Positions 13,938 to 29,617 of a stretch of DNA of 33,504 bases are shown here, one piece after another. The first letter of the stretch is position 1. Every line of letters begins with the position of its first letter. Source of the DNA: a virus; the IMG/VR virus record IMGVR_UViG_3300025122_006649, positions 1 through 33,504 of that record. One strand, 5' to 3'. Both the position numbers and the translations under genes were made by a program. The notes under the pieces are model-generated. The model saw only the letters and a program-made list of their open reading frames with translations, searched no databases and was not told the DNA's origin.

Positions 13938-13946
13938 ATCACTTCC

Positions 13947-14120: not shown

Positions 14121-14193
14121 GGATTACATACCACGATCACAAACAACGCAGCCTAACTCAAGGTGAGATAGACTATTGTAGCAATACGGTTTC

Positions 14194-15844: not shown

Positions 15845-15861
15845 TCTTCTCTCCTTATGAC

Positions 15862-15890: not shown

Positions 15891-15927
15891 GTTAATCACC
15901 TGCGCTGTCATGAATGACAATCAACCG

Positions 15928-17727: not shown

Positions 17728-17757
17728 ATGGTAATGCCATGCCGGTGTTATAGTCAA
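17728..17757 (-). promoter_or_regulatory. Leftward promoter with 13-bp palindrome
   Basis: Read leftward, TTGACT (17757-17752), 18 bases, TACCAT (17733-17728). The near-palindrome ATGGTAATGCCAT covers 17728-17740 and so overlaps the -10 box. It drives the zinc protein and recombination genes. The -35 overlaps the stop of the Mom-like gene. Confidence 0.7.
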
Positions 17758-18344
17758 GGAGGGTAATTAGGTTTCGGGCCGCCATCCCATTTGCGCGATT
17801 GCCAACCACACATAGATGTAAGCAGCTTCCTGTCTCGTTTCGTTCCTGTCGCTATCCAATATCGTATTTTCGATTTGCGCCTGACTTTCGTATACTTGCC
17901 TGATCGGAATGCGTCTCTGCTATGTTTGCCGGTGACTACATAATCATACCTTGGCGTTTTCCGGTCCATGTCCGTCCATTCGGCATAATGGAAATTCATA
18001 GCCCTATAGACCGTCCCGTAATGTCCATGCGCTGTGTCTGCATACGAAGCTATTAACCGTGGAGGCATTTGCCTTAATGCTGACGCGACAAATTGAGATG
18101 CCGTATTGCGCGGCAAATCGTCGCGTATCCACAATCGGCTCAACTCCAATACGCATGATGGGTCAGTAGGGCAAACGCTCTTCTGCATATGCCTCGATGC
18201 GGGACAGCCAAACGTAACCGCGCCGACTATCTCACCCTGCACGTATAACGCGAACGCGTACGACGCGCCCACTTTACGATGCATGTAGTGATTCCTGACG
18301 ATATACGGCATTACGATCTGGCTCGGCACGAGGAGAGCGTTCAC
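17754..18344 (-). CDS. mom: Mom-like DNA adenine modification protein
   Basis: The 196-residue product shows the hallmarks of the phage Mu Mom family, a GNAT-fold enzyme that converts DNA adenine to a carbamoylmethyl form and blocks many restriction enzymes: 'NHYMHRK' (18-24), 'YVQGEIVGAVTFGCPAS' (34-50), 'LELSRLWI' (66-73), 'LPRNTASQFVASAL' (77-90), 'SYADTAHGHYGTVYRAMNFHY' region (100-120) and a basic C-terminus. The GTG start follows directly on the stop of the upstream gene. In Mu a small zinc protein, Com, activates mom translation; the upstream gene here has no zinc motif, so control must differ. Function rests on family motifs. Confidence 0.85.
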   Translation of the reverse strand: MNALLVPSQIVMPYIVRNHYMHRKVGASYAFALYVQGEIVGAVTFGCPASRHMQKSVCPTDPSCVLELSRLWIRDDLPRNTASQFVASALRQMPPRLIASYADTAHGHYGTVYRAMNFHYAEWTDMDRKTPRYDYVVTGKHSRDAFRSGKYTKVRRKSKIRYWIATGTKRDRKLLTSMCGWQSRKWDGGPKPNYPP

Positions 18345-18566
18345 TCAGAACAATTCCAAATTATCAGCGGTATCGTCGGCAGGCAAGGGCTCATCGCGAG
18401 ACATATCAACGATACTCTCAACATCACCACCATGAGATTCTACCCATCGACAAAGCAATGTATTCCTTGCAGTCAGTAGGGTGTTACGTCCCTTGATAGC
18501 CAGGTAGTCATGGTGCAGTTTCGAGAGTCTTGATTCCAGTTCGGCTATTGTGGTTTGCTTTGCCAT
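18345..18566 (-). CDS. Small coiled-coil protein
   Basis: The 73-residue product has a heptad-like N-terminal half (TTIAELESRLSKLHHDYLAIK) and an acidic C-terminus. Its ATG overlaps the helicase stop (TAATG) and its stop abuts the GTG of the Mom-like gene, so the three are translationally linked. It lacks the Cys pairs of Mu Com. Function unknown. Confidence 0.6.
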   Translation of the reverse strand: MAKQTTIAELESRLSKLHHDYLAIKGRNTLLTARNTLLCRWVESHGGDVESIVDMSRDEPLPADDTADNLELF

Positions 18567-21223
18567 TACAGAAAATTCTCCACCGCTTCGGTAAACAGCT
18601 TCCGACGATTGCCCTTGAATAGCTCTGCATGCAACACCGCCGCCTTTTCCGGTGCGGTTATCGGACGGGTACTCTCGGCCTTCCGCCTTTCATCGATTTG
18701 CTTTTGCTGCACTGACATCACCTTGGCCTCGATCTCCGCTGCCTGTCCGTCCGAGCGCACCGCCACGAGTCGACCGTCAACCATTGCCGGCAAGAACCTT
18801 TGCATGTGCTTCCCCTCGGCATCATCGCCAAGCACGGCGCCGCAGAAATGGCACGTCACGTTTTGCGCAGCATTCATCACTCCGCACCTACCGCACATCT
18901 GCATAGGATCGAGGTCAACCACTGGCTCGGGCGCATCGTCGCCACCATCGCCTTCAAGCGACCATACAAAGTCACGATCGGGCATACCGTGGATTACTGA
19001 GTTCCCTACGAAATCTGCGCAGATGTAGAAATCTTTTCCTTCGACAACGCGCTCAGCACGTCCGTTAAACTGAGTCCAGATGATAGGACTAAGGGTTCGT
19101 CTAAGCCAAAGGACACCGTACAAACCATGGATAGACATCCCCTCGATTCCGATACCGACTGTACAAATACCGTTGTTTTTGCCCGCGGCAACAGCTCGCA
19201 AAATTCTTTTACGCTCATGCTTTGCAAGATTGGAGTGGAGGTGTTCAAAGTGCCATCCTTTTTCGGCGAATGCCTCGGTCATCATTTTCGCGTGTTCGTA
19301 GGTTGCACACGGTACGATCACCGGTCGACCTTCGAATGTGCGGGTATAGTAGTCTACCACGTTGCCTACGATTGTAGGCGCTCCGAGTATTTCGGCCTGT
19401 GCTTTCGTGTCGAAGTCGTCGCCGTTTTTCGGTACGTTCTGGCACCATTGCTCGGGGAGCACGAGGAGTGGTTTGGTTATGAAGCCCTGTTCGATAGCTT
19501 GGCTTTTCGAGATGGTCTGTACGACATCGGTATAGAGGTGCTCGAAGCTGCGCAAGCTGCCGTGATAGAGGGTGGCTGTCAGTCCGAGGCGTAGGGCGTT
19601 GGGGAAGTAGCGGTATATCGATTCCCAGCTTGACGCGAGAGCATGCTGACAGTTATGAGACAATATCCCGTTCGTGAAATAGCAATGGTTCGTCTCTACT
19701 TCGACGTCGTAAACCTGTTGGACATCGCGTTTTGAGATTCCAATTATACGCTCGTATTTTGTATTGCATGCACTCCGGAACGAATCCTTTGATTTCGTCG
19801 AGAAACTTTCTCGAAGCCTGAGAGCGAAGACCGACAAAAAAGAGGTCTTTCCTTTTTTCCTCTCTGATATAGCAAGGCCCGTAGCGATCTTGAAAGAAAT
19901 CTTTAATAGTACAGTTCTCATCATAGCTATAGCCGTGTGTGTGGAAATCGACCATATTTGAAATACACGATCCGTCATCGCAGAACCACCACGCCAACCC
20001 TTCGATTGTGAGCCTGTTAAGAGCTTCGATTGTAACTCGCTTTTTCCCGCCCTTGATGAGTAGTTCATGTATCGGCAGTAAGATCGGAAGACTCCGAGAG
20101 CGCCCAACAATTGAAGTCTTGCCATATCCAGCATTTGGGGTGATACGGGTTTCAAGTCCGATAGTTGATAGGTTTGCGGCCTTGTATTCGGCCCATTCTC
20201 GTTGAGGCAACCCATGAGTCCACGTAATGCGCGGAGATTTGCTACGTGCTGCGGGGAAACCAATACTCGAATCGCCAAGCAATGTGCCAATGATTTTCCC
20301 GATTTCCTCATTGGATAAAACGGCATTCCATCCTGGTTGGTGCTTGTCGTGCCCTTTCCGATATTTATTGTATCCGCACGAGCTTCGCATTTTTCTATAT
20401 GATTCAAACTTCCCACATCTCGGAAGTGCATTTTCACCGCATCCGCATTGGCATAACGGTGCTTCGTCAAGTATCTCTTGATATATCTTTCGCCATTCTG
20501 ATTCGGTCCTGTGCGCGTATGTCCGGTGACCTGGTATCCAAACCGGCGAATATCCTTTCTTGTTTCGCTCTGTTCGTTGGCCACATCCGCATTTACAAAG
20601 ATTTCGTCTTTCGATGTCAGGGTTCCAGCTGTCTGCCATCCGTGCTCCCCGTAGATAAGGTGGTCATGAGTGCAGCGCAGTCGCCTACCGGATTCGGTTG
20701 TAATCTCGATAATGTCTCGCTTGCCGCGAGGGATGAACTGAACAACTCGACTGTATTTTTTACGCACTCCATCATACGTCAGTATATACTTAGGGTTGTG
20801 TTGTGTCCATTCGTCTATGCGGATCGGGCCGAATTCGGTGTCAACCATTGTGTCACCGGTAACGCACTCATCGGTGATTATTTCGTCCGGGTATATCGAT
20901 TCTTGGATGTAGCCGAGTTGGTTAATCAAAGACAGCGCCATGCACACATACACCATGCGCCCTTTTCCTCGTACACCCTCATCATTGATATACCCCGGGT
21001 TCAAGCCATGCTCAGAAAGCACCTTCATCCATTCGGCGAATATTTCCATCTGAGGTACGATCACATACACGCGTCGGTTCAGTGAGTTACGGTCATCGAT
21101 GAGCGCTGCTGCGGTGTATGTTTTGCCGGTCCCGCATGGTGCGAGATAGACCGGGTGCCTTGAGTTGTTGAGTAGCATGTTGCAGATTCGGCGTGCTTCG
21201 AGTTGGTATGCTCTGTTGCCCAT
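18566..21223 (-). CDS. SF2 DNA helicase interrupted by an intein
   Basis: I place the start at the ATG at 21223, just before the conserved 'MGNRAYQLEARRICNMLLNN'; the longer frame to 21484 runs through the upstream HTH gene. Motif I is 'APCGTGKT' (residues 28-35). Motif II is split: '..EIITDE' then, after the intein, 'CQHA', which rejoin to DECQH. Motif III is 'GLTATLYHG', and the C-terminal helicase half has 'NNGICTVGIGIEGMSIHG' and 'QFNGRAERV'. A zinc ribbon follows (CGRCG...CHFC). After splicing the helicase would have 480 residues. There is no ribosome site; a promoter -10 lies five bases before the ATG, so the message may be leaderless. It probably acts in phage replication or recombination. 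Confidence 0.85.
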   Translation of the reverse strand: MGNRAYQLEARRICNMLLNNSRHPVYLAPCGTGKTYTAAALIDDRNSLNRRVYVIVPQMEIFAEWMKVLSEHGLNPGYINDEGVRGKGRMVYVCMALSLINQLGYIQESIYPDEIITDECVTGDTMVDTEFGPIRIDEWTQHNPKYILTYDGVRKKYSRVVQFIPRGKRDIIEITTESGRRLRCTHDHLIYGEHGWQTAGTLTSKDEIFVNADVANEQSETRKDIRRFGYQVTGHTRTGPNQNGERYIKRYLTKHRYANADAVKMHFRDVGSLNHIEKCEARADTINIGKGTTSTNQDGMPFYPMRKSGKSLAHCLAIRVLVSPQHVANLRALRGLMGCLNENGPNTRPQTYQLSDLKPVSPQMLDMARLQLLGALGVFRSYCRYMNYSSRAGKSELQSKLLTGSQSKGWRGGSAMTDRVFQIWSISTHTAIAMMRTVLLKISFKIATGLAISERKKGKTSFLSVFALRLRESFSTKSKDSFRSACNTKYERIIGISKRDVQQVYDVEVETNHCYFTNGILSHNCQHALASSWESIYRYFPNALRLGLTATLYHGSLRSFEHLYTDVVQTISKSQAIEQGFITKPLLVLPEQWCQNVPKNGDDFDTKAQAEILGAPTIVGNVVDYYTRTFEGRPVIVPCATYEHAKMMTEAFAEKGWHFEHLHSNLAKHERKRILRAVAAGKNNGICTVGIGIEGMSIHGLYGVLWLRRTLSPIIWTQFNGRAERVVEGKDFYICADFVGNSVIHGMPDRDFVWSLEGDGGDDAPEPVVDLDPMQMCGRCGVMNAAQNVTCHFCGAVLGDDAEGKHMQRFLPAMVDGRLVAVRSDGQAAEIEAKVMSVQQKQIDERRKAESTRPITAPEKAAVLHAELFKGNRRKLFTEAVENFL
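19652..20866 (-). mobile_element. Intein in helicase motif II
   Basis: The 405-residue intein starts at Cys1 (codon 20866-20864; CVTGDTMVDTEFG = block A), has block B with the T-x-x-H pattern (CTHDHLIY) followed by 'GWQTAGTLTSKDEIFV', and ends with block F 'VYDVEVETNHCYF' and block G 'NGILSHN' before a +1 Cys (19651-19649). All splicing residues are present: Cys1, block B Thr/His, penultimate His, terminal Asn, +1 Cys. About 290 residues between the splicing halves show no homing endonuclease motif in this frame; that stretch is the out-of-frame reading of a nested endonuclease gene. The insertion within the DECQH box is a typical conserved intein site. Confidence 0.92.
19653..20639 (-). CDS. 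LAGLIDADG homing endonuclease nested out of frame in the intein
   Basis: The 328-residue product begins at an ATG (20639) with GGGGAG five bases upstream. It has two N-terminal CxCGCG...GH zinc-type modules ('LCKCGCGQRTE...IPGHR', 'LCQCGCGENA...RKGHD'), then LAGLIDADG motif 1 (IGKIIGTLLGDSSIG, 113-127) and motif 2 (TIEGLAWWFCDDGS, 211-224), each with its catalytic Asp. It ends with 'VPECMQYKIRAYNW' and a TAA that lies across the Ser-His-Asn codons of intein block G. It is shifted by one frame from the intein and overlaps both block B and block F/G. It would cut intein-less helicase alleles and so spread the intein. See findings. Confidence 0.9.
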   Translation of the reverse strand: MADSWNPDIERRNLCKCGCGQRTERNKKGYSPVWIPGHRTYAHRTESEWRKIYQEILDEAPLCQCGCGENALPRCGKFESYRKMRSSCGYNKYRKGHDKHQPGWNAVLSNEEIGKIIGTLLGDSSIGFPAARSKSPRITWTHGLPQREWAEYKAANLSTIGLETRITPNAGYGKTSIVGRSRSLPILLPIHELLIKGGKKRVTIEALNRLTIEGLAWWFCDDGSCISNMVDFHTHGYSYDENCTIKDFFQDRYGPCYIREEKRKDLFFVGLRSQASRKFLDEIKGFVPECMQYKIRAYNWNLKTRCPTGLRRRSRDEPLLFHERDIVS

Positions 21224-21228
21224 ATGAT

Positions 21229-21257
21229 ATGGTAATGCTATAGCGTGTATTCGGCAA
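21229..21257 (-). promoter_or_regulatory. Leftward promoter before the helicase
   Basis: Read leftward, TTGCCG (21257-21252), 17 bases, TACCAT (21234-21229), with the near-palindrome ATGGTAATGCTAT at 21229-21241. The helicase ATG begins five bases after the -10, so transcription would begin at or next to the start codon. Confidence 0.6.
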
Positions 21258-21462
21258 CCGTAGCCGTGCCGGATCTGGTTTTCACTTCGATGAGTGTCGA
21301 CTTGATTGCATAGCCCGATGCCTTGAGGTCGTACACTCGAGCAGATAGCCGAGCAACACCGAGTTCGAGGAATGCGTCCATTGGTGTTATGGCGCCGTAG
21401 CGGTTGAGATAATCCAAAACCTTCCGGCCTTGTGGTGACGGGGTGGGGAATAGATCGGTCAT
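21238..21462 (-). CDS. Small winged/helix-turn-helix protein
   Basis: From the ATG at 21462 (ribosome site GGGGAAGAG just upstream) the product has 74 residues: 'GRKVLDYLNRYGAITPMDAFLELGVARLSARVYDLKASGY' is a common phage helix-turn-helix layout with an 'ITPMDAFLELG...L..RVYDLK' recognition core, then a beta wing ('IEVKTRSGTATVAEYTL'). It probably binds DNA. Its ATG overlaps the stop of a 36-residue membrane protein (ATGA). Confidence 0.75.
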   Translation of the reverse strand: MTDLFPTPSPQGRKVLDYLNRYGAITPMDAFLELGVARLSARVYDLKASGYAIKSTLIEVKTRSGTATVAEYTL

Positions 21463-21569
21463 CTCTTCCCCTTCGCCAACGCAACGACGAACCAAATCAG
21501 GACTGCATACTCAGCGATCAGCGCGAGCATGGGTACTATGAAAATTAATACTATGTCAGAGAGTTTCAC
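21459..21569 (-). CDS. 36-residue small membrane protein
   Basis: A GTG-started gene with a strong GGGAGG site encodes MKLSDIVLIFIVPMLALIAEYAVLIWFVVALAKGKR. It is almost entirely one long or two short membrane helices with a basic C-terminus. The stop overlaps the start of the HTH gene (ATGA), supporting translation. Function unknown; such peptides are often membrane or exclusion factors. Confidence 0.6.
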   Translation of the reverse strand: MKLSDIVLIFIVPMLALIAEYAVLIWFVVALAKGKR

Positions 21570-21591
21570 CCTCGATACCTCCCGTATACTA

Positions 21592-21672
21592 TCATCGCAA
21601 AAAACGCGACAAGAAATACAACTTGAGCAAAACCGCGTCTTCCTCGGAAGTCCATGGACGCCCGTTATTCAT
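21592..21672 (-). CDS. 26-residue peptide
   Basis: The frame encodes MNNGRPWTSEEDAVLLKLYF... and overlaps the end of the upstream frame. 'WTSEEDAVLLKLY' resembles the first helix of Myb/SANT-like or phage HTH proteins, so it may be a short DNA-binding peptide or a truncated gene. Support is limited to the overlap and this motif. Confidence 0.4.
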   Translation of the reverse strand: MNNGRPWTSEEDAVLLKLYFLSRFLR

Positions 21673-21826
21673 TTGCCTTCTCTTGCGGGATAACCACATT
21701 CAAAGGACCATATGGGGGACATCGACGCTCTGACAACGACCAACCATTACTCATGCCAGATTGAGGCGCTCGATATTCACCGAACGGCTCAACCCATAGC
21801 GGTGTCTGTTCGTCTATGCTATGCAT
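21665..21826 (-). CDS. Hypothetical 53-residue protein
   Basis: An open frame (MHSIDEQTPLWVEPFGEYRA... ending IPQEKANE) whose start is uncertain: in-frame starts at 21847 (TTG), 21835 and 21826 all lack a clear ribosome site. Its stop overlaps the next frame. The sequence is Pro/Trp-rich with no family. It probably belongs to a run of tiny genes behind the promoter at 22002-22030. Confidence 0.4.
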   Translation of the reverse strand: MHSIDEQTPLWVEPFGEYRAPQSGMSNGWSLSERRCPPYGPLNVVIPQEKANE

Positions 21827-21847
21827 CAAGCCCATCAAGCCATTCAA

Positions 21848-22001
21848 GGGATTTCATGATCCGTTTTACCGTCTTTGAATGTGATTATTGCGCAATAGCT
21901 CATGCATCCTCCAATGAACCCCGACGAGACTTGCAACTACCGGCTCCTTTTGCTATCGCACCGGAGCACTCGCTGCCGTGCCTCATCAAGGTTCTGTGTA
22001 T
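21848..22001 (-). other. Leader region with very short open frames
   Basis: Between the promoter at 22002-22030 and the 53-residue frame lie only tiny frames: 28 codons (MRHGSECSGAIAK..., ATG at about 21988) and 19 codons (MSYCAIITFKDGKTDHEIP, preceded by GGAGG and overlapping the first by ATGA). The second resembles the start of a larger phage protein and may be a truncated or frame-shifted gene. Nothing else is seen here. Confidence 0.4.
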
Positions 22002-22030
22002 ATGGTAATGCCATGAAAGTGCAGTGTCAA
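22002..22030 (-). promoter_or_regulatory. Leftward promoter with 13-bp palindrome
   Basis: Read leftward, TTGACA (22030-22025), 17 bases, TACCAT (22007-22002), with ATGGTAATGCCAT at 22002-22014. The consensus -35 and exact spacing make this one of the best promoters in the window. It drives the run of small genes leading to the HTH protein. Confidence 0.75.
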
Positions 22031-22034
22031 TAGT

Positions 22035-22412
22035 TTAGCGGATTATTTCCCAATCTTTGAGGGCCCGGAGCATGTCCTGAATTGAACGCACGATTACATA
22101 GCGACAGCCCGTAGCCTCGCACCATCGCATGAATCGTTTTTGATTTTCAGTTTGTGTGCCGGTAGGTTTCTTGACCTCGGCGAAGAACGCATGGTCGGCG
22201 TGTGCTATCACGATGTCACTAACGCCGGGAGTTAGGCCCATGCTTTTGAGTTTGTTCATGGTAATCGCTGCTTGTTTGCGATCCATCCACGACAAAAACC
22301 TTTCGTTCGGCACCGAGAAAAACATGAACTTGTTTTGTTCTGCGATGCCGGAGAGGAGGGTTACGATGTTGCGCTGTATCTGCGACTCGGTTAATTGCCC
22401 GGGCTTTGGCAT
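22035..22412 (-). CDS. VRR-NUC domain nuclease
   Basis: The 125-residue product fits the VRR-NUC (PD-(D/E)XK) family: N-terminal 'ESQIQRNIVTLL', 'VPNERFLSWMDRKQAAITMNKLKSMGLTPGVSDIVI' with the catalytic Asp in 'GVSDI', 'AFFAEVKKPTGTQTENQKRFM' with Glu-x-Lys and Gln, and 'CRYVIVRSIQDM'. Stand-alone VRR-NUC proteins in phages are structure-specific nucleases, probably for Holliday junctions or flaps. It overlaps the upstream ribbon-helix-helix gene by about 20 bases. Confidence 0.85.
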   Translation of the reverse strand: MPKPGQLTESQIQRNIVTLLSGIAEQNKFMFFSVPNERFLSWMDRKQAAITMNKLKSMGLTPGVSDIVIAHADHAFFAEVKKPTGTQTENQKRFMRWCEATGCRYVIVRSIQDMLRALKDWEIIR

Positions 22413-22594
22413 AGACTCATTACCGCGTCACGGAATAGGTTCGAACGATACGCGATGCCGTTTGCCTTTTTGTATTTGTCGATTGTAGCGAGCTCGCCAG
22501 CGGTGAACATAACGACAACGCGCTGGTTCCGCTGTTCGCCCGACGGTAGCCGCCTTTTTTTCTTTAGCCGCCTTTTTTTCTTTGTGTGTGCCAT
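22391..22594 (-). CDS. Ribbon-helix-helix-like DNA-binding protein with basic N-terminus
   Basis: I place the start at the ATG at 22594, six bases after a strong promoter -10; the longer frame to 22714 would have to begin upstream of that promoter. The 67-residue product starts with a very basic stretch made by a perfect 18-bp tandem repeat (KKKRRL twice), then a strand-helix-helix 'QRVVVMFTAGELATIDKYKKANGIAYRSNLFRDAVMSL' typical of ribbon-helix-helix proteins. It may regulate the leftward promoters. No ribosome site precedes the ATG, so translation may be leaderless. Confidence 0.7.
   Translation of the reverse strand: MAHTKKKRRLKKKRRLPSGEQRNQRVVVMFTAGELATIDKYKKANGIAYRSNLFRDAVMSLCQSPGN
22548..22583 (+). 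repeat. Two tandem 18-bp units with T7 runs
   Basis: Two identical 18-bp units (22548-22565 and 22566-22583), each containing seven Ts, encode the KKKRRL pairs of the basic N-terminus on the other strand. Such a repeat is prone to gain or loss of whole units in frame. Confidence 0.85.
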
Positions 22595-22600
22595 GCCCGA

Positions 22601-22629
22601 AATATATGATAGTGGTATGGCAATGTCAA
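22601..22629 (-). promoter_or_regulatory. Strong leftward promoter before the ribbon-helix-helix gene
   Basis: Read leftward, TTGACA (22629-22624), 17 bases, TATATT (22606-22601): near-consensus sigma-70. The ATG begins six bases after the -10. The spacer contains a variant of the operator motif (TGGTATGGCAAT on the + strand). Confidence 0.75.
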
Positions 22630-22775
22630 GTGGCGGCGTTCTTCTTGACGATACTGCATGGAGGGCCATTGCAATCGAATCATTGTTGGACGAATGGCGA
22701 GTAGACCTTACCACACTCTTGGCACAGTCGGGAAATTGCCGCCGTCTCTTTTCTGATTGCCTCTATACGTCCGAC
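22630..22775 (-). other. Gap after the holin-like gene
   Basis: About 150 bases between the holin-like gene and the next promoter. One frame contains a CxxC knuckle ('LCQECGKVYSPF') without a start codon; an ATG overlapping the holin stop reads MSRT in another frame. A one-base change would join them into a 32-residue zinc peptide. I do not call a gene here. Confidence 0.35.
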
Positions 22776-22979
22776 TCATGAAGGTGTTTCGTTATTCTTC
22801 TTAACAATTTTGCCGGCAACCATAGAGCCGGTCAATACGCCCATCGGTACGCCAACGCCAAGAGCGAACGTGCCAACTGGAGCAAGGTCTATCGAGGGGT
22901 CGAAGCACCACCGCACGATCGGCACACAGACGAGCATTACAAGACAGAGCAGAAACACTATTTTTGTCGCGACCTTCAT
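22776..22979 (-). CDS. Holin-like small membrane protein
   Basis: The 67-residue product has two hydrophobic helices (about 5-22 and 36-57) separated by a charged/Pro turn (RWCFDPSIDLAPVG) and a basic, polar tail (GKIVKKNNETPS), the layout of class II holins. Its ATG overlaps the stop of the 150-residue spanin-like gene (ATGA) and lacks a ribosome site, so it depends on translation of that gene. Its neighbours are spanin-like genes and an M23 endolysin, which supports a lysis role. Confidence 0.65.
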   Translation of the reverse strand: MKVATKIVFLLCLVMLVCVPIVRWCFDPSIDLAPVGTFALGVGVPMGVLTGSMVAGKIVKKNNETPS

Positions 22980-23428
22980 AGCAACAATTGTATCACCACG
23001 ACCACCAAAAGGACAAGCGAGCTAATCGATGCTGAATAGGTCAATACCTTCCAAGTAGTCAAAGATTTCAATAATTTCGTTGAGGATGCGGATGCTTGAT
23101 TCAATGAGTTCGTCGCCCTCTGTAGCTCCATAGATAAGTCCGTCAAGGCTATTTCGGATGATTCCAAAATTCTCGACAAGTGTATCACGCTCTGCTCGGA
23201 TTCGGTCAAGGCTGTCTCTGAGATATATAGCAGTTGTTTTTGCTTCCGCGAGAGCTGCTTTTGTGCTTGTAAGTTCGCTTTCAAGTCGTTCAGTTTTGAT
23301 TTGGCTATCGCCCAAGACGATTTTATATCGTCCGATTTCGACGCCGCAGTACACGGAGCCGCCGATAATGCCAAGAACAATAATAACAATAATCCAAAAC
23401 ATGACCTTCGTACTCGTGCGTGTCGCAC
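22976..23428 (-). CDS. u-spanin-like protein, nested frame
   Basis: The 150-residue product (GTG start) has a basic N-terminus, a hydrophobic signal (about 11-21) ending in SAAPC26, a polar helical middle with 'AKSKLNDLKANLQAQKQLSRKQKQ', and a C-terminal membrane helix (131-150). Signal/lipobox-like start plus C-terminal membrane anchor is the plan of unimolecular spanins, which join outer and inner membranes during lysis. The lipobox is imperfect (Pro at -1). Its stop overlaps the holin start, and the holin has no other ribosome site, which supports real translation. It is shifted one frame from the gene at 23022-23435, which covers nearly all of it. Confidence 0.6.
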   Translation of the reverse strand: MRHARVRRSCFGLLLLLFLALSAAPCTAASKSDDIKSSWAIAKSKLNDLKANLQAQKQLSRKQKQLLYISETALTESEQSVIHLSRILESSEIALTDLSMELQRATNSLNQASASSTKLLKSLTTWKVLTYSASISSLVLLVVVVIQLLL

Positions 23429-23435
23429 CTATCAT
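23022..23435 (-). CDS. i-spanin-like membrane coiled-coil protein (Rz-like)
   Basis: From the ATG at 23435, which overlaps the stop of the M23 gene (ATGATA), the product has 137 residues: an N-terminal membrane helix (VMFWIIVIIVLGIIGGSVYCG, about 11-31) and a charged coiled coil ('QIKTERLESELTSTKAALAEAKTT', 'LRDSLDRIRAERDTL'), as in Rz-type inner-membrane spanins; the C-terminus is acidic and helical. The longer frame to 23468 would enter the M23 gene. A second open frame nested in it encodes a u-spanin- or Rz1-like protein. Confidence 0.65.
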   Translation of the reverse strand: MIGATRTSTKVMFWIIVIIVLGIIGGSVYCGVEIGRYKIVLGDSQIKTERLESELTSTKAALAEAKTTAIYLRDSLDRIRAERDTLVENFGIIRNSLDGLIYGATEGDELIESSIRILNEIIEIFDYLEGIDLFSID

Positions 23436-24139
23436 ACTCCTACCACCGAGAACGGGTCGACGATGCATATCATGTCACGTCCGATGAATCCGTACTCAGT
23501 TCTCTTGTATTCGGGCAATTGGAACCTGAATATCTCATGCTCTTGCACGAGCCGGAAATCGTCGGTTGCTATTTGTTGGTTGCATTCTGCTATTACATGA
23601 TACCGGTCAAGGCCATGCGCGGATCCACGATCGCCCATCATAGAGACGGTGAACTCGCCGGGGGAGCATTTCAGCACCTCAGCACTCACCAAATTAAGAT
23701 AGAGCTGTACTGAAATCACGACCTCGAAATGCAGGTGCGGAAATGCGGTATACACAGTATCGGGAGTCCCTATGACCGACCCTTGCGATACCCAGTGCCA
23801 TCCATCGTCAGCGAATACGTCACCCGCGACTACGTGCCTCAGATACACGAGACAGTCTGGCACTTCTTTTGAGTGGATGGTCGGCACGTACACAATCATC
23901 TGGTTCGATGCGTCGTAGCCTACGAGTCCGTCGCCGGGCGCTCTCACCTGCTTATCATCGTCATAGCCGTAGTCAACTCCATAGTGAATCGGCCTGTAGC
24001 CTGTACCCGGATACCAGCCTGCACGGTGGCTGTCGGGGTCGACTTCTCCCGGGGGTGCCCAATCGCGATTGGCTCCGAACAGATCGGTGATTCTGCGCTC
24101 GGGTAGTTTCATCGATTTCAGTACGTTGATTGTGTCCAT
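23432..24139 (-). CDS. M23-family peptidase endolysin
   Basis: The 235-residue product has LytM/M23 motifs: HYGVD (52-56; zinc His and Asp), 'VRAPGDGLVGY' (65-75) and HLHFEV (135-140; catalytic and zinc His). It would cut peptide cross-links in peptidoglycan. There is no signal peptide, so release would depend on the holin. The last 90 residues carry an added beta-rich region of unknown role. It lies between rtcB and the spanin-like genes and starts the lysis group. Confidence 0.85.
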   Translation of the reverse strand: MDTINVLKSMKLPERRITDLFGANRDWAPPGEVDPDSHRAGWYPGTGYRPIHYGVDYGYDDDKQVRAPGDGLVGYDASNQMIVYVPTIHSKEVPDCLVYLRHVVAGDVFADDGWHWVSQGSVIGTPDTVYTAFPHLHFEVVISVQLYLNLVSAEVLKCSPGEFTVSMMGDRGSAHGLDRYHVIAECNQQIATDDFRLVQEHEIFRFQLPEYKRTEYGFIGRDMICIVDPFSVVGV

Positions 24140-24142
24140 GGT

Positions 24143-25300
24143 TTATCCTTTGATTACGCCAAGCGGCGTGAGTTCTGTTTTGATTTCTACGAGGTCGCTC
24201 TGTGCTACCATGACAGCGTCGATGTCTTTGTATGCACCGGATGCCTCATCAAGATCCTTTGCATTGCGAATACCATGCACTATGCCTTGGTCGTCGAGTC
24301 GCTTGATTTCAGCAGCAAGGTCAAGTTCGCGCGTTGCTTGCTTGCGGCCCATCCGGCGCCCGGCACCGTGAGAGCATGAGTTGAAGCTCTGCGGATTGCC
24401 TTTGCCTTGTACGATATACGACTTCGTTCCTTGCGAGCCAGGGATAATCCCGATGGTATCTTCACGGGCAAGCGTTGCGCCTTTGCGATGCACGATGACG
24501 TTCTTGCCGAAGTGATTCTCCCATGCCGCGTAGTTGTGGTGGATGTTGATATAGTTGTCATAGACGAACCCGCCAGAACCAACAACCGACTCAAAGCATT
24601 CTAACGCGCGATCAAGCATGAGTTTCCGGTTCTGATATGCGAACGATAGCGCATAGTTCATCGCTTCGAAGTATTCTTTCGCTTCTCGTGTCTCGATCGG
24701 CAGGAACGACAAATCAGGATCGGATATATCCGAATACCACCGCTCACATAACGCCTTTGCTTTGGCGTGATATTCCTTGGCTATCTTGTAGCCGAAATTA
24801 CGCGAGCCGGAATGAACCATGATCCATATCAATCCGTCCTGATCCTGTTGTATCTCTATAAAGTGGTTGCCCCCACCGAGCGTGCCGAGTTGCTTTCGTG
24901 CCGATGATAGTTTGTTCTGAATGATGCGGATATCGGGAGCGTCGTCAAAGCCGTCCCACTCTTGCGCGGTTTCGTGGTGAGCAAATCCAACCGGTATCGC
25001 TTCTCGGATCTTCCCCATGGTGGCCTTTATTTGTTCGACATCCACATTCACGATAGATGTTTTCGCGGCTATCATTCCGCACCCGATGTCGACGCCGACG
25101 CAAAACGGTAACACCGTACCCTCGGTTGCCATAACACCTCCTATGGGTAAACCGTATCCCTGATGTGCGTCAGCCATGACAGCTACATGCTTGAATATGA
25201 AAGGAATATTGGCTACGTTCTTCGCTTGTTGCAGTGCGCCCTCTTCGATATCTTCGGCCCATATTTTGATAGGCTTCTTTTCTGTCGATACAACGTTCAT
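24143..25300 (-). CDS. rtcB: RtcB-family RNA ligase
   Basis: The 385-residue product carries the full RtcB motif set: 'CVGVDIGCGM' (67-76; metal Asp71, Cys74), 'GGGNHFIEI' (142-150), 'VHSGSRNFG' (162-170; His163), 'NIHHNYA' (252-258), 'RKGAT' (272-276) and 'NSCSHGAGR' (307-315) with His311, the guanylylated residue. RtcB joins 2',3'-cyclic phosphate or 3'-phosphate ends to 5'-OH ends using GTP and Mn2+; it splices tRNA introns in archaea and animals and repairs RNA in bacteria. The gene has AAGGAG five bases upstream of the ATG. A co-oriented interrupted tRNA-like gene ends 25 bases upstream, which suggests a joint function. Confidence 0.93.
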   Translation of the reverse strand: MNVVSTEKKPIKIWAEDIEEGALQQAKNVANIPFIFKHVAVMADAHQGYGLPIGGVMATEGTVLPFCVGVDIGCGMIAAKTSIVNVDVEQIKATMGKIREAIPVGFAHHETAQEWDGFDDAPDIRIIQNKLSSARKQLGTLGGGNHFIEIQQDQDGLIWIMVHSGSRNFGYKIAKEYHAKAKALCERWYSDISDPDLSFLPIETREAKEYFEAMNYALSFAYQNRKLMLDRALECFESVVGSGGFVYDNYINIHHNYAAWENHFGKNVIVHRKGATLAREDTIGIIPGSQGTKSYIVQGKGNPQSFNSCSHGAGRRMGRKQATRELDLAAEIKRLDDQGIVHGIRNAKDLDEASGAYKDIDAVMVAQSDLVEIKTELTPLGVIKG

Positions 25301-25325
25301 GGTTACTCCTTACATTTTCGGACTC

Positions 25326-25471
25326 TGGCATCGGCAGGATTCGAACCTGCATGAGTTTGACAGCAGTCATGATTCCGCGTTTGACATCCTCAGCTTGGCA
25401 TGTAACCACAAGCGCGACTGCCACGATTTATGATGTCAACCACTGCGTCTATCCAATTCCGCCACGATGCC
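25326..25471 (-). tRNA. tRNA-like gene interrupted in the anticodon region
   Basis: Read leftward, GGCATCG (25471-25465) pairs perfectly with CGATGCC (25333-25327), followed by A as discriminator; no CCA is encoded. The D arm (25462-25445, GCG...CGC with GG in the loop) is nearly identical to bacterial tRNA-Leu D arms, and the T arm is perfect (GCAGG-TTCGAAT-CCTGC, 25350-25334). Between D and T stems lie 94 bases, versus roughly 23-40 in normal tRNAs. In them TTGACATC (25439-25432) is complementary to GATGTCAA (25388-25381), a canonical-looking loop ATCATAA (25434-25428, anticodon CAU if real) occurs, and TGAC-TGCT-GTCA (25369-25358) could be a variable arm. No single clover-leaf is compelling, so identity is not assigned. 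Confidence 0.6.
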
Positions 25472-25474
25472 ATA

Positions 25475-25500
25475 TGCGGCGCCCCGTCCGAGACGCCGCA
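25475..25500 (-). other. GC-rich hairpin before the tRNA-like gene
   Basis: TGCGGCG and CGCCGCA form a perfect 7-bp stem with a 12-base loop, ending three bases before the tRNA-like 5' end. It lacks a T-run. It could shield the precursor 5' leader or guide processing. Confidence 0.5.
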
Positions 25501-25701
25501 AGTTGAAATATGAAGCCCTACGCTATCGAACGTAAGACAGCAGCTCCTTTGTTTTCGTACATACCGCCCGCATGCGCGGTGCGGCTGTGTTCATCAGTCG
25601 GTAGCGCATTACTACTACCTGGCCGGTTGACGACGGTAATTATTTACGTCTCAGGTCCGGCCTATCTGCATCCGTAGGGACGTCAACGACGTTTGCGGTT
25701 G
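25501..25701 (-). other. Gap between the DpdA-like gene and the tRNA-like gene
   Basis: About 200 bases with no clear gene. Two tiny leftward frames occur: 22 codons starting near 25709 and 28 codons at 25523-25609 (MRYRLMNTAAPRMRAVC...). The second has only a weak AGG upstream. Several short inverted repeats are present. Nothing is called with confidence. Confidence 0.4.
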
Positions 25702-26499
25702 TCAGCATAGTGAAAATAGATCCATTTCAGAATGTCGCTTATCAGGTGATTCGATTGATTCAAAAAAAACTACTGATGCCTTTATCCTTTCGACCATGCC
25801 ATCACGATCATATGATTTGAGCAATTCATAGTCTATGCCAATGGTAAGCATATAGTCGATTACGGATTGTTTGAATGGGTCAATCTCCCATTTCCTCATT
25901 TCAGATTCATTGAATCTCAATGTGCCGATTGGCGTAATTACCATTCCGAATCTTGCCAACCTGAACGCGTATGTCCCATCAACAGAATCGAATGCATATG
26001 TGCTCATGATATGAGTGTCGAGAAACCCGAAACCGTGAATCTTTACATCGTCAGGAATATGGCGGAAGCAATGCTCGATAAAATTACACTTCTTTGGCCT
26101 TGATCCTTTGTTGATGGCAGCGATCCCTACATGCTCTGATCTATCAAGATAGAAATTCAATGTATCTATGCTGTCGTATTCATGGTATATCGGTACCGGA
26201 TTGAACCCGCAATTCAAGCTATGCTCAAATAATTCCATCGATTTTTTCTCATCGCCTATTTCGTCGAGCGCTGCGTAAATATCAATGATGCCATTGTTCA
26301 TATTGATAAACTCATGATATTTTTCGATGTCTATTGGCTTGCCTCGTTTCCATGCAACATACCCTCCTGAATCTATGAATAAGCTATCGGCCCATTTCGG
26401 ACGGTTGTATCCATGTACCTTCCTATTGAAAGCATACAATAGACCGATAGACATTCCCATTTCTATGTCATTTGGGATCGCGCTGTAGTATTTTTTCAC
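25702..26499 (-). CDS. dpdA: DpdA-like 7-deazaguanine DNA transglycosylase
   Basis: The 265-residue product has the layout of the tRNA/DNA-guanine transglycosylase superfamily: 'SLFIDSGGYVAW' (39-50; Asp43), 'YAALDEIGDEK' (75-85), 'PVPIYHEYDS' (101-110), 'HVGIAAINKG' (123-132), 'KIHGFGFLDTHIM' (153-165) and 'AFDSVDGTYAFRLARFG' (169-185) with the likely nucleophile Asp. Length and motifs fit phage DpdA enzymes, which exchange guanine in DNA for a 7-deazaguanine. It lacks the tRNA-enzyme zinc site. The YhhQ transporter gene next to it, overlapping by 32 bases, supports a deazaguanine role. The GTG start has no clear ribosome site. Confidence 0.7.
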   Translation of the reverse strand: MKKYYSAIPNDIEMGMSIGLLYAFNRKVHGYNRPKWADSLFIDSGGYVAWKRGKPIDIEKYHEFINMNNGIIDIYAALDEIGDEKKSMELFEHSLNCGFNPVPIYHEYDSIDTLNFYLDRSEHVGIAAINKGSRPKKCNFIEHCFRHIPDDVKIHGFGFLDTHIMSTYAFDSVDGTYAFRLARFGMVITPIGTLRFNESEMRKWEIDPFKQSVIDYMLTIGIDYELLKSYDRDGMVERIKASVVFFESIESPDKRHSEMDLFSLC

Positions 26500-27079
26500 G
26501 AGTGATCAAATAGAATATGGGAGTATCGATTGCTGCGATTATTAGTTTGAATACATATTGGGCGATTATCATATTCCAGATATCCGGAACGACTCCACCG
26601 AAAGCAATGAGTATGAATATCATCGTATCGATAGCTTGACTTGTCATTGTGGATAGATTGTTGCGTAGCCATTTATGCTTGCCTTTGGTCAATTTCCCTA
26701 TCACGTGGAACGACCTGACATCGATTAATTGTGATATCAAATACGCCACCATTGATCCGATGACTATTCTATAAGATGATGCGAAATATAGATTGTATGC
26801 ATCGATGCCATCCTTTGCCCATACTGGGTATGGTAATATTCCTACTAAATGGATGATCGAGACAGCGAAAGCCGACACTATGAATCCGCACCATACTAAT
26901 TGATTCGATGATTTCCGACCGTACAATTCGGAGATTATATCAGTGCCCAAAAACGTGATGGCATATACCACGAACGCACCTGGCATGATGAATTTTCCGA
27001 TTGCTACAAATCGGCTTGCTATGATATTTGCTAATACCACGCATGCGATAAATACAGATTCGATGATTTTTCTCTTCAT
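26468..27079 (-). CDS. yhhQ: YhhQ-family queuosine/7-deazaguanine precursor transporter
   Basis: The 203-residue product has about six membrane helices and family motifs 'ANIIASRFVAIG', 'YAITFLGTDIISELYGRK', 'VAYLISQLIDVRSFHVIGKLTKGKHKWLRNNLSTMTSQAIDT' and 'YVFKLIIAAIDTPIFYLI'. YhhQ proteins import preQ0/preQ1-type bases. In phages this gives the deazaguanine substrate for DNA modification. It has AGGAG upstream of the ATG and overlaps the DpdA-like gene. Confidence 0.88.
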   Translation of the reverse strand: MKRKIIESVFIACVVLANIIASRFVAIGKFIMPGAFVVYAITFLGTDIISELYGRKSSNQLVWCGFIVSAFAVSIIHLVGILPYPVWAKDGIDAYNLYFASSYRIVIGSMVAYLISQLIDVRSFHVIGKLTKGKHKWLRNNLSTMTSQAIDTMIFILIAFGGVVPDIWNMIIAQYVFKLIIAAIDTPIFYLITREKILQRDPK

Positions 27080-27088
27080 GTGATTCTC

Positions 27089-29332
27089 CTAAAATAATTC
27101 TGTCGTGTTCTTGATCGATTCAGCTTCTTTCAAATTCGCTACGCCTTGCTTCCAATAACTCGGTTTCAGTTCTACCCCCTTGAATTTCCTCCCCATTTTC
27201 ACAGCTTCGAATCCCTCAGATGCTATGCCAGCGAAAGGCGAAACTACCACATCGCCTTCCAGTGACCACAATTGCAATGCACGATGGATTACTTGCAATT
27301 GCAATGGCGCTATATGTCTTTCGTCTTTTTCTTCTCGGGCAGACGATTTCTGCAATGTCTCGGACGCGTTGATATCCATCCACACAGGAGACGCGTATCG
27401 CTGCCATACATCGATACTGTATCGTTCTCCTGCTTTCGCTGTTTGCCGGCCGCCATGCAATTCATCCCCTTCGTAATGGTCGAATTCTCCTGCTATCGGT
27501 TTGCCGTTTTTTCCTGGTTTCCTCATGGTAACCAAATAATCTGGTATTCCTTGACGGCTCATCGCCGAATCTTTAACCACTTGCTTGTGTAGCAACCCGA
27601 TAGATTTTGTGCGTTGCATCGCTGTGACTGGATCTTTCCAGATTACCACTTCCGAATGATAAATGAACCCGGCATCAACGTACAATTTGATCATGTCGCC
27701 TCGGAAGTCGCGCATGCCTATATACCCATTATGGGTGATTGTAGATGGTATGTTCATGCAATGAAATGACAGCAACCGACCAGGGCGGAGTGTGCGGAAT
27801 TGTTCTTTTATCAGGAAATTATAATGATCGAAGAACGCTTTATCATTTGTGCAATTACCCATATCGCGATCGCTCGCAGAGTATGTATATAGGGATGAGA
27901 AGGGAGGTGAAAATATCATATAGTCTACGGAATCATCCGCGAGATTGCGGTGAAAGTTGACGGTATCCCCTAAATGCATTTCCCATCCGGCGCCTTTGGC
28001 GAAATCTTCTACGTATTCGGAATGCGTACTCACGATCCCTTTTACATTTTCCTCGTTTATTGTGTGCATATGCTCCACCATATTTTTTGACATTTCCATA
28101 GCGTCATTTTCTTTTCGTTGGATGTTTTTCACCACTGCGCCTTCCAGTTCGGATGTGATGATTTTCACGTTCACTGTTTCCGATTGTCCGAATCGCCAAC
28201 ACCTACGAACGGCTTGATAGTATTGTTCATAGGAATCAGACAAACCGACGAATGCTACATTGTGGCAATTCTGAAAATTGAGTCCGTATCCGAACATTGA
28301 TGGCTTAGAAATGAGTACACGGATATCACCACTCGCGAATCCCCGCGCCGAATTGACTTTATGGTCCTGGTTGTCAGATCCTTTCACCTCGACAGATCCA
28401 GTTGTCAGTTTTTTTAGCGCGTCCGATTCATCATTCCTGTTGCACCATACGATCCATTGATTGCTATTTCCGTTTACCAGTTCTGCTGCTTTTCGTGCTC
28501 GATCTCCAACTGTCGCTCTTCGTGCTTGTTGTCGTTCTTGCAATGTTTGCGCTTCCATGGTGAATAAACAACCTTCTTGTATAGCTTCGGTGTCGATTAC
28601 TATCTGTTCAATTTCCAATGGTGGCAAAATAAAGTCTCCATCGTCATATCCGAAGTCTGAAGGCTTGCGTAGCATGACAGCCCATGAAGCTACCCATCTC
28701 CAAAATTCATTCTCGGCATGTCCTTTGAGCCTCCATTTTTGTGTCTCTCCGCCATCGTGTACGAAAAACATAGACAGCATTTCCGTCCGAGACATGGCGC
28801 CTACAAACTCGGCATGGTTGCCAAGCTCCATATAATCATTTGGAGCGGGGGTCGCTGTACATGCGAGCTTGAAAGGGATGATTCCGAAACGTTCTATGAT
28901 TTCGTTTCGTATTTTGCCGGTATAGCTTTTGAGAATCGATGATTCATCAAGGACTATCCCTTTATAATTCTCGGGATTAAAATGTTCGAGCCGTTCGTAA
29001 TTGGTGATTGATACCCTGGTAGGAATTTCCCCATGTTGCGAATACTCCATAGGCTCTTTGTGGAATTTCTCAGCTTCGGTTATTGTTTGTTGTGATACCG
29101 CGAGCGGTGCGACTATCAACACATTGCCCGGTACGTGATGAGCCCATTCGAGCTGGATTGGTGTTTTCCCCATACCGCAATCCGCGAATACACAAGCCCG
29201 TCCTCGCTTCAATGCCCAGCGCGTAATATCGCGTTGAAACGGGAATAGCATATCGTTGATGTCTGGTATTTCAGATAATCCGGTAGGCACATCTTCTATG
29301 GCCTTTTGACGTAAAAACTCCTCGTATCGCAT
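27089..29332 (-). CDS. SNF2-type helicase fused to DNA methyltransferase
   Basis: I start at the ATG at 29332 with AGGAGG just upstream; a longer frame to 29482 would cross the promoter. The 747-residue product has an SF2/SNF2 helicase half: 'ADCGMGKT' (50-57), 'VLDESS' (127-132), 'CTATPAPND' (158-166), 'QAVRRCWRFGQ' (373-383), then a methyltransferase half with 'FSPPFSSLYTYS' (474-485; SPPF is motif IV of N4-cytosine/N6-adenine enzymes) and 'SPFAGIASEGFEA' (698-710; motif I, FxGxG-type, with Ala in place of the third Gly) near the C-terminus. Motif order IV-I is circularly permuted, as in beta-class enzymes. It probably methylates phage DNA while tracking along it. Confidence 0.85.
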   Translation of the reverse strand: MRYEEFLRQKAIEDVPTGLSEIPDINDMLFPFQRDITRWALKRGRACVFADCGMGKTPIQLEWAHHVPGNVLIVAPLAVSQQTITEAEKFHKEPMEYSQHGEIPTRVSITNYERLEHFNPENYKGIVLDESSILKSYTGKIRNEIIERFGIIPFKLACTATPAPNDYMELGNHAEFVGAMSRTEMLSMFFVHDGGETQKWRLKGHAENEFWRWVASWAVMLRKPSDFGYDDGDFILPPLEIEQIVIDTEAIQEGCLFTMEAQTLQERQQARRATVGDRARKAAELVNGNSNQWIVWCNRNDESDALKKLTTGSVEVKGSDNQDHKVNSARGFASGDIRVLISKPSMFGYGLNFQNCHNVAFVGLSDSYEQYYQAVRRCWRFGQSETVNVKIITSELEGAVVKNIQRKENDAMEMSKNMVEHMHTINEENVKGIVSTHSEYVEDFAKGAGWEMHLGDTVNFHRNLADDSVDYMIFSPPFSSLYTYSASDRDMGNCTNDKAFFDHYNFLIKEQFRTLRPGRLLSFHCMNIPSTITHNGYIGMRDFRGDMIKLYVDAGFIYHSEVVIWKDPVTAMQRTKSIGLLHKQVVKDSAMSRQGIPDYLVTMRKPGKNGKPIAGEFDHYEGDELHGGRQTAKAGERYSIDVWQRYASPVWMDINASETLQKSSAREEKDERHIAPLQLQVIHRALQLWSLEGDVVVSPFAGIASEGFEAVKMGRKFKGVELKPSYWKQGVANLKEAESIKNTTELF

Positions 29333-29348
29333 CGGTCCTCCTGTCATT

Positions 29349-29377
29349 ACCATAATAAAGCGCCATGGTATTGTCAA
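29349..29377 (-). promoter_or_regulatory. Leftward promoter for the helicase-methyltransferase operon
   Basis: Read leftward, TTGACA (29377-29372), 17 bases, TATGGT (29354-29349). A half-copy of the operator motif (ATGGTAATG) covers the -10. Its -35 overlaps the -35 of a rightward promoter (29371-29376). Confidence 0.65.
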
Positions 29378-29399
29378 CGATGAAAAATAGTTGTATGTT
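29371..29399 (+). promoter_or_regulatory. Rightward promoter of a short RNA
   Basis: TTGTCA (29371-29376), 17 bases, TATGTT (29394-29399). It is back-to-back with the leftward promoter and shares its -35 bases. Transcription would run about 70 bases into a strong terminator. Confidence 0.5.
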
Positions 29400-29401
29400 G
29401 T

Positions 29402-29474
29402 AGAAGACGTTTCGCATACGTCCTCCTTTATTTCCCCTCGGCAGGTTAACTCCTTACTGCCGGGGGTTTTTTTT
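29402..29474 (+). ncRNA. Candidate small RNA
   Basis: Between a rightward promoter and a terminator lies about 70 bases with no open frame: a hairpin (GACGT/ACGTC, 7-base loop), an unpaired pyrimidine stretch (TCCTCCTTTATTTCCCC) complementary to AGGAGG-type ribosome sites, then the terminator stem. This hairpin-plus-CU-stretch-plus-terminator plan is common in bacterial small RNAs. It rests on structure only. Confidence 0.4.
29435..29474 (+). terminator. Strong rightward terminator
   Basis: CCCTCGGCAG (29435-29444) pairs with CTGCCGGGGG (29457-29466) with one T-G pair, a 12-base loop, then eight Ts (29467-29474). Confidence 0.85.
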
Positions 29475-29500
29475 GGGTGCATTGCGCAAAGTGGTATGGT
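29473..29500 (+). promoter_or_regulatory. Probable rightward promoter of the ParB operon
   Basis: Best fit is TTGGGT (29473-29478), 16 bases, TATGGT (29495-29500). The region contains AGTGGTATGGTATTAT, related to the operator motif of the leftward promoters. Other -10 choices (TATTAT, TACTAT) exist nearby, so the exact start is uncertain. Confidence 0.45.
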
Positions 29501-29602: not shown

Positions 29603-29617
29603 ATGAGAGGTAGAGAG

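Follow-up and report, generated by a model that had tools for sequence, protein, structure and literature searches.

Predicted import-fed guanine exchange beside a Mom gene in the leftward region of a viral contig

Do the genes for DNA base modification that lie together in one viral contig form a single set, and is the 7-deazaguanine base that one of them would insert imported or synthesised? These questions are raised by the linear IMG/VR virus record IMGVR_UViG_3300025122_006649, whose 33,504 bases were analysed as a whole (this stretch is called the window below). A first reading made from the sequence alone (the sequence-only reading) had named a Mom-like protein, a DpdA-like transglycosylase with a YhhQ importer, and a helicase fused to a methyltransferase. 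Each of the genes it named was confirmed on the minus strand at the coordinates it gave, and their family assignments held when compared with Pfam, PHROGs and NCBIfam. The genes in question are:

17754 to 18344, minus strand: Mom-family DNA adenine modification protein, 196 aa (PF25680, phrog_1384, PDB 8bv8)
25702 to 26499, minus strand: DpdA-type DNA guanine transglycosylase, 265 aa (phrog_887, E 2.4e-35)
26468 to 27079, minus strand: YhhQ/QPTR queuosine-precursor (preQ0/preQ1 type) transporter, 203 aa (PF02592, TIGR00697)
27089 to 29482, minus strand: SNF2-like helicase fused to an N4/N6 DNA methyltransferase (HelMT), start probably near 29332

We lean slightly towards the view that the region combines import-fed guanine exchange with adenine momylation, encoded by two DNA-modification modules that would have been acquired separately. 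In the first, the low-GC group HelMT-YhhQ-DpdA (hereafter the cassette), the membrane transporter YhhQ would import a 7-deazaguanine precursor, preQ0 or preQ1, which DpdA would swap for guanine in the phage DNA by a covalent base exchange on conserved aspartates; the helicase-methyltransferase may add N4 or N6 methyl groups. In the second module, a stand-alone Mom would modify adenine at N6. Taken by itself, the import-fed guanine exchange appears reasonably probable.

Linkage of YhhQ and DpdA in viral contigs

The import step is suggested above all by the company that phage yhhQ genes keep. A scan of viral contigs with the window YhhQ recovered 13 loci, and phrog_887 was matched in 10 of these 13 records; this was the less biased of two scans. 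The other looked for DpdA near viral YhhQ, using a query alignment made mostly of DpdA-linked YhhQ proteins. Of its 102 viral yhhQ loci the best 80 were kept, near-duplicates included; dpdA was found at 65 of them, in every case on the yhhQ strand and no more than 3 kb away, and in 58 cases within 1 kb. As a background, the same DpdA model matched a single mom locus out of 80 and none of 80 rtcB loci. Flanks were 5 kb for the yhhQ loci and 3 kb for the mom and rtcB loci; all 65 pairs nonetheless fell within 3 kb. The DpdA proteins of the linked loci formed 48 clusters at 90% identity and 30 at 70%.

A third gene recurred in this neighbourhood. The order ParB, DpdA, YhhQ was seen at 54 of the 65 linked loci (L239-L316, L005, L006), and in 54 of the 56 linked loci having a ParB gene, it lay no more than 500 nt from DpdA. 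The frequency of ParB was 0/15 at yhhQ loci without dpdA, 2/80 at mom loci and 0/80 at rtcB loci. This small ParB-like protein may target DpdA, or may be a cut-down methyltransferase partner. A DUF6884 gene was found at 12 of the 65 linked loci; DUF6884 is the dpdC domain (PMC11888242), and the phage versions may act on preQ0. For two copies (L107 and L221) the best PADLOC match was the candidate defence family PDC-M57A, DpdC matching more weakly (E 7e-9 and 4e-7). Two side observations concern these small genes. The small ParB-like gene of phage phiFN37 matches positions 8-165 of the 436-position type II methyltransferase model PDLC03229 (E 5.6e-31), and a DUF6884-type gene sits between DpdA and YhhQ at L006 2218-2628, L107 4568-5002 and L221 14084-14524.

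In the window and in a related contig (G008), YhhQ comes before DpdA and the helicase-methylase lies upstream. This reversed order suggests that the YhhQ-DpdA pair formed more than once. The order HelMT-YhhQ-DpdA is kept in G008 with 76, 57 and 57% identity respectively, the major head protein being 45% identical, and in the window yhhQ and dpdA overlap by 32 nt. The cassette has a GC content of 0.435 against 0.499 for the rest of the window, with 0.40 each for dpdA and yhhQ; none of 298 equal-length stretches taken at 100-nt steps was as low. This lowest GC of the window, together with the conservation in G008, points to acquisition of HelMT-YhhQ-DpdA as a unit.

At the 15 yhhQ loci without dpdA, a QueC match was found in 5 and a FolE match in 1. 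Separately, locus L002 (contig G001, 147 kb) encodes a YhhQ 56% identical to that of the window; it is without phrog_887 and has FolE-like and QueC-like genes within 4 kb.

These results are evidence that a phage YhhQ commonly serves as the transporter component of a DpdA cassette, and we regard this, above the trio of modification systems, as the main value of the analysis. Among the papers listed by a literature search, most subscription papers being outside its coverage, none surveyed how DpdA and YhhQ are linked in viral contigs; a 2019 survey describes phage YhhQ as uncorrelated with any specific group (PMC6884629). That survey also suggests host-made preQ0 or uptake for DpdA phages lacking synthesis genes (PMC6884629), preQ0 import by YhhQ has been presented as a second route before DpdA (PMC11945000), and a review lists yhhQ in the CAjan cluster (PMC10002423). 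The import idea and the CAjan yhhQ are thus already in print. What the linkage does is make the uptake option concrete and testable, by placing a transporter within the modification cassette. A broader and rather doubtful proposal is an "imported-base" strategy, in which phages would carry their own transporter beside a DNA transglycosylase and depend on environmental or neighbour-made preQ0 or preQ1 to protect their genome; it would be widespread as ParB, DpdA, YhhQ and would take here the form HelMT, YhhQ, DpdA plus Mom, with A and G marks on the same DNA. If the base is indeed taken up, protection of a phage from restriction could hinge on a micronutrient in its surroundings.

Target of the DpdA-like protein and source of its base

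We examined whether the pair might serve base exchange in tRNA rather than DNA. By sequence, the 265-residue protein falls in phrog_887, a family of phage "queuine tRNA-ribosyltransferases" that also includes the DpdA of phage 9g (E 2.5e-100), and tblastn with it matched 9g (E 6e-11) and CAjan (E 1e-10); 188 phage records gave a match, every one below 60% identity. Residues L21, D43-S44-G45, H106, H155, G158, S172 and D174 are invariant in ten proteins including the 9g DpdA; D43 and D174 are presumably the counterparts of the catalytic Asp residues of tRNA-guanine transglycosylases (TGTs). The TGT model PF01702 scored 13.8 bits, below its cut-off of 26.3. The sequence-only reading, which had called the protein DpdA-like, stands as far as sequence family is concerned.

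A structure search upheld it in part. With an AlphaFold model as query, the top Foldseek match was 7ui4, the solved structure of the DNA preQ0 insertase DpdA (E 2.7e-4), ahead of an indole-3-glycerol phosphate synthase and of tRNA TGTs, but VIA-align gave 7ui4 a Z of 12.1 (root-mean-square deviation 3.0 over 154 residues) and the TGTs a Z of 11.6-12.2 among the matches listed, so that on the model DpdA and TGTs tie. The fold is predicted to be TGT/DpdA, and the sequence family to be phage DpdA.

YhhQ itself matches PF02592 (E 9.6e-51) and the "queuosine precursor transporter" equivalog TIGR00697 (149.3 bits, cut-off 50.95); with NF008406, the 7-cyano/7-aminomethyl-7-deazaguanine transporter, it scores 43.8 bits, below the cut-off of 252. 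That TIGR00697 proteins normally supply tRNA queuosine, that the fold is common to tRNA TGTs, and that DpdA is immediately followed by a tRNA-like gene and RtcB would fit a role in tRNA. We nevertheless consider it quite unlikely that YhhQ and DpdA act on tRNA, given that phrog_887 has members shown to act on DNA and the PF01702 score is below cut-off. In CAjan, whose protein belongs to the same family, deletion of dpdA removes dPreQ0 from the DNA, according to PMC6884629. DpdA was found at none of the 80 rtcB loci with their 3-kb flanks, so the RNA-repair neighbourhood is not conserved, and some cassettes elsewhere carry the DpdC-related DUF6884 gene.

Where the base would come from was addressed by searching for deazaguanine-synthesis genes, which the sequence-only reading had reported absent. 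This was borne out in the record: none was seen among the window proteins scanned (30 against PHROGs, 30 against Pfam), whole-record searches detected neither QueC nor QueD, and home-made FolE and QueC models matched nothing in it (no separate search was made for QueE). A total of 16 records was examined for QueC and QueD, 14 of which have both DpdA and YhhQ (the window, ten IMG/VR records, phiFN37, Roos and the contig G036). None of these 14 had QueD or an above-cut-off QueC; one sub-threshold QueC match was found, in phiFN37. In the positive control, 9g, QueC and QueD were both detected. Among the pair records tested, those of phiFN37 and Roos were deposited as complete genomes, the others being IMG/VR contigs of 4 to 55 kb. 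At 44 of the 65 linked loci, no FolE, QueC or QueD match was present within the fetched DNA. The FolE and QueC models used at these loci were home-made, and the QueD model was assembled in part from truncated, probably wrong-frame pieces, which makes the QueD counts unreliable. An Rfam search (E up to 5) found no preQ1 riboswitch in the window; it returned a tRNA-like match and four hits below gathering.

Several results weigh against import-fed exchange on phage DNA, besides the composition of the query alignment mentioned above. A synthesis gene (FolE, QueC or QueD match) was near 21 of the 65 linked loci, and six other named DpdA phages all have synthesis genes near dpdA. Among seven synthesis-type DpdA phages (these six plus 9g), three had weak PF02592 matches, at 24.2 bits in CAjan, 25.7 in RHEph04 and 28.6 in 83AMN, the last alone being above the cut-off of 27.2. 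The standard role of YhhQ is salvage for tRNA queuosine; QPTR substrates vary, and sequence is an unreliable predictor of them (PMC11130926). The DpdA-like protein had no NCBIfam and no PADLOC match, its sequence-profile match to 7ui4 was at E 0.15, and its AlphaFold model (nine sequences) is weak, with a mean predicted local distance difference test score of 57.8 and a predicted template-modelling score of 0.60; to this is added the VIA-align tie. The 33.5-kb record is probably incomplete: no terminase or portal was seen in the same protein scans (30 against PHROGs, 30 against Pfam), so that the window is probably a fragment. By mass spectrometry, as reported in PMC6884629, the DpdA-only phage Orion had no modified G and the DpdA-only phage 7-11 about 0.02%. 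The broad resistance to restriction that the sequence-only reading expected is, given these two phages, a conjecture. Finally, the activities of all the enzymes are predictions from sequence, and Mom is unlinked to the cassette.

The matches in synthesis-type phages lie at 32129-32368 in CAjan (NC_028776), 45160-45444 in RHEph04 (NC_041908) and 41986-42210 in 83AMN (OR243293); tblastn with the window YhhQ missed all three.

Because synthesis-type phages also show YhhQ-like matches, the odds of import are lowered. It could be that the transporter supplements synthesis: a missing part of the genome, or the host, would make preQ0, and YhhQ would raise the supply, as it may in CAjan-like phages. 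The YhhQ-like matches in CAjan, RHEph04 and 83AMN, the synthesis genes near 21 of the 65 pairs and the probably fragmentary window would all agree with this. It is on balance unlikely, since neither QueD nor an above-cut-off QueC accompanies the pair in the complete genomes deposited for phiFN37 and Roos, and 44 of the linked loci had no match to a synthesis gene in the fetched DNA. The proposal of the sequence-only reading that the base is imported and not made was thus strengthened by the YhhQ-DpdA linkage and by the 14 pair records, and tempered by the synthesis genes near 21 of the 65 loci and the YhhQ-like matches in 3 of the 7 synthesis-type phages.

Alternatively, the modification genes may be accessory leftovers that modify DNA barely or not at all in the natural host, as with DpdA in Orion. 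The two DpdA-only phages with no or hardly any modified G, the absence of synthesis genes from the window and the patchy presence of Mom would be expected under this explanation, which we judge rather unlikely: the frames are intact, the genes overlap, there are invariant residues, the three-gene cassette is conserved at 57-76% identity and the transporter pairing is recurrent, all of which argues for selection. The barely modified DpdA-only phages do indicate that lack of supply can leave DpdA idle, and this is the problem that a transporter would solve under import-fed exchange.

Mom, the helicase-methyltransferase and known systems

The Mom protein matches PF25680 (E 1.7e-30, 106.6 bits, cut-off 27.1) and phrog_1384 (E 5.8e-36). 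A sequence search of solved structures at E up to 1 matched a single one, PDB 8bv8, itself a Mom (E 2.2e-11). The protein is 29% identical to Mu Mom, with conserved motifs along its length; 19 residues are invariant across six Mom proteins including that of Mu, for instance H19, Y20, R23, S28, E67, R70, D103, Y113 and N117. An active Mom, which as a member of this family would convert adenine in DNA to the N6-carbamoylmethyl form, is likely. Mom is a common phage gene, with matches in 259 of 50,697 phage records, the nearest being Mycobacterium phages at 53% identity, where the relatives are annotated as hypothetical protein, acetyltransferase or Mom-like protein.

Mom does not travel with the cassette. 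phrog_1384 was matched in 0 of the 13 yhhQ records and Mom in 0 of the 80 yhhQ loci, while DpdA was present in 1 of 80 Mom records, a test covering 80 of at least 480 relatives, many of them short contigs and the second half without a positive control. Mom was not found in the nine other named DpdA phages (9g, phiFN37, Roos, ZHS, CAjan, RHEph04, phi38:2, 83AMN and Knocker), nor in G008, a possibly incomplete contig. Scans of viral contigs with single window proteins gave no match for Mom, none for DpdA (G008 only, when a two-sequence DpdA alignment was used) and one relative for the helicase-methylase.

The helicase-methyltransferase matches Helicase_C (E 7.7e-10), N6_N4_Mtase (E 1.3e-10) and phrog_16 (E 6.4e-74), and carries the motifs CGMGKT at 102, SPPF at 525 and SPFAG at 748. 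Both Pfam matches, like those of Mom and YhhQ, exceed the curated cut-offs. Its frame is open to 29482; the alignment to its closest homologue begins at M51, near 29332, in agreement with the start chosen in the sequence-only reading. The protein was found, as a fusion or as adjacent genes, in 353 phage records, 302 of them covering at least 80% of its length, and the idea that it is special was discarded on this count. Among 41 genome loci with the helicase-methylase, DpdA was nearby in 1 and Mom in 1. We conclude that the gene is commonplace in phages and associated with the cassette only now and then.

It has close to an even chance of being unrelated to hypermodification, acting instead in replication or recombination, or as a methylase with an anti-restriction or epigenetic role, Mom and DpdA-YhhQ alone being protective. 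Its occurrence in 353 phage records, and its presence near DpdA and Mom in only 1 each of the 41 loci, are as such an explanation would predict. Less easily accounted for are its position beside YhhQ-DpdA in two related phages and a contig of a Treponema metagenome-assembled genome (L221), in which a separate helicase and methylase are followed in a row by ParB, DpdA, DUF6884, YhhQ and a QueC-like gene (9953-15988; genes named from tblastn, home-made models, inspection of the translations and, for DUF6884, PADLOC). L221 is a fuller form of the same neighbourhood, and the sole DpdA-bearing locus among the 41. That the methyltransferase marks the phage DNA is a tentative proposal, rather less likely than not; the joint presence of A and G marks is somewhat less doubtful, if short of an even chance.

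The trio as one system was rejected: Mom is unlinked (0/13 and 0/80 for yhhQ, 1/80 Mom records with DpdA), and the helicase-methyltransferase is widespread. The sequence-only reading knew of no description of this exact trio. The set is indeed rare; however, it is no fixed set, and the combination of A and G modification is in print for phage PA5oct. A Mom, DpdA and transporter set is thus rare and not unprecedented in kind. An unrelated contig of 7.4 kb (G036; L237 753-4037) has on one strand Mom, a RusA-like gene (by reading), DpdA (phrog_887, E 7.1e-51) and a Vut_1 transporter, with Mom, DpdA and transporter within 3.3 kb. It differs from the window by its divergent proteins and by DpdA preceding the transporter (the contig is possibly incomplete); tblastn with the helicase-methylase, run for this comparison, found no match in L137.

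PA5oct, according to PMC7824862, has several Mom enzymes and a deazaguanine system, and so resembles our reading of the window in joining A to G modification. It is a jumbo phage with QueD-family genes; we found one weak Mom-like match in a 553-aa frame (E 1.8e-8) and no phrog_887 or PF02592 match, so the case for deazaguanine in its DNA depends on that publication. How different types of modification combine against restriction could usefully be tested on a phage that marks both A and G.

The DpdA systems of 9g, CAjan and Rosebush, as described in PMC6884629, are of the same protein family, D43-S44-G45 and D174 being common to the window protein and 9g, and CAjan also has a YhhQ-like match, though a weak one. 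Unlike 9g, CAjan and RHEph04, the window record contains no synthesis genes, has a full-length, above-cut-off transporter overlapping dpdA, and carries the helicase-methylase where those phages have FolE/QueD neighbours. Closer are phiFN37 (Fusobacterium) and Roos (Faecalibacterium), in which DpdA and an above-cut-off YhhQ lie close together with no QueD or above-cut-off QueC; these two differ from the window in having DpdA before YhhQ, with a DUF6884 gene between them in phiFN37, and in lacking Mom.

Bacterial dpd islands consist of dpdA-C plus the restriction genes dpdD-K, with YhhQ in about 9% of them (PMC11888242). They are alike in having DpdA with partner genes, and some phage cassettes carry the DUF6884 gene related to DpdC. 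When seven window proteins were compared with PADLOC, no DpdA, DpdB or DpdC match was seen among the matches listed; the helicase-methylase gave a weak DpdF match (E 6e-4), the only dpd-type one among the matches listed (25 of 36 families).

Neighbouring genes and a tRNA-like sequence before rtcB

Bases 1-8460 of the record encode, rightward, a scaffold protein, the major head protein, a neck/tail-completion protein and the tape measure, and further rightward frames reach 12614. The leftward block comes next, in the order Mom, intein-bearing helicase, VRR-NUC-like, M23-like, RtcB, DpdA-like, YhhQ, helicase-methyltransferase; rightward ParB and DnaD-type replication genes end the record. Three systems in one region, as the sequence-only reading put it, is literally correct, but Mom is separated from DpdA by RtcB, the M23-like and VRR-NUC-like genes and the intein helicase. 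A megablast of the whole region against phages gave no match. The other features are:

18566 to 21484, minus strand: helicase with intein (PF14890, TIGR01445, TIGR01443)
23432 to 24139, minus strand: M23-type peptidase gene (E 2.1e-6, slightly under the Pfam cut-off)
24143 to 25300, minus strand: RtcB RNA ligase, a neighbour and no part of DNA modification (PF01139, E 2.1e-112)
25326 to 25471, minus strand: tRNA-like sequence with an insert of about 66 nt, in the rtcB leader (RF00005, ARAGORN with introns)
29603 to 30817, plus strand: ParB-like protein, divergent from the cassette (ParB_N, E 8.2e-7)

The ParB-like protein weakly resembles its small counterpart in other DpdA-YhhQ cassettes (E 5.3e-4 with a model of the cassette ParB). 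The match of the VRR-NUC-like nuclease is under the Pfam cut-off. The M23-type peptidase gene sits inside the DNA-metabolism block, far from the tail genes. In the helicase, the intein occupies residues 207-611 (about 405 residues; nt 20866-19652) at the site DE|C...N|CQH; PF14890 matches at E 5.2e-13, and TIGR01445 and TIGR01443 exceed their cut-offs. From its sequence, the insertion site is read as helicase motif II, in the ATPase active site.

The tRNA-like sequence is 146 nt long and ends 25 nt before the rtcB start. It scores 35.1 bits with RF00005 (gathering 29), and ARAGORN reports it only when introns are allowed, with a 66-nt insert whose border shifts with the settings. In a constrained fold, the acceptor stem, D-arm and T-arm are good and a longer stem replaces the anticodon arm; the fold is modestly stable (z -1.8). 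The element could represent a phage tRNA that undergoes splicing, or else a decoy or mimic of tRNA, and merits separate study. An ARAGORN tRNA was present within 900 nt upstream of rtcB in 10 of the 80 viral rtcB loci. Enlarged tRNA-like genes lie upstream of rtcB at L030 (1265-1381) and L031 (2243-2359), both 117 nt, and at L037 (2855-2944, 90 nt), where the gene stands directly before rtcB.

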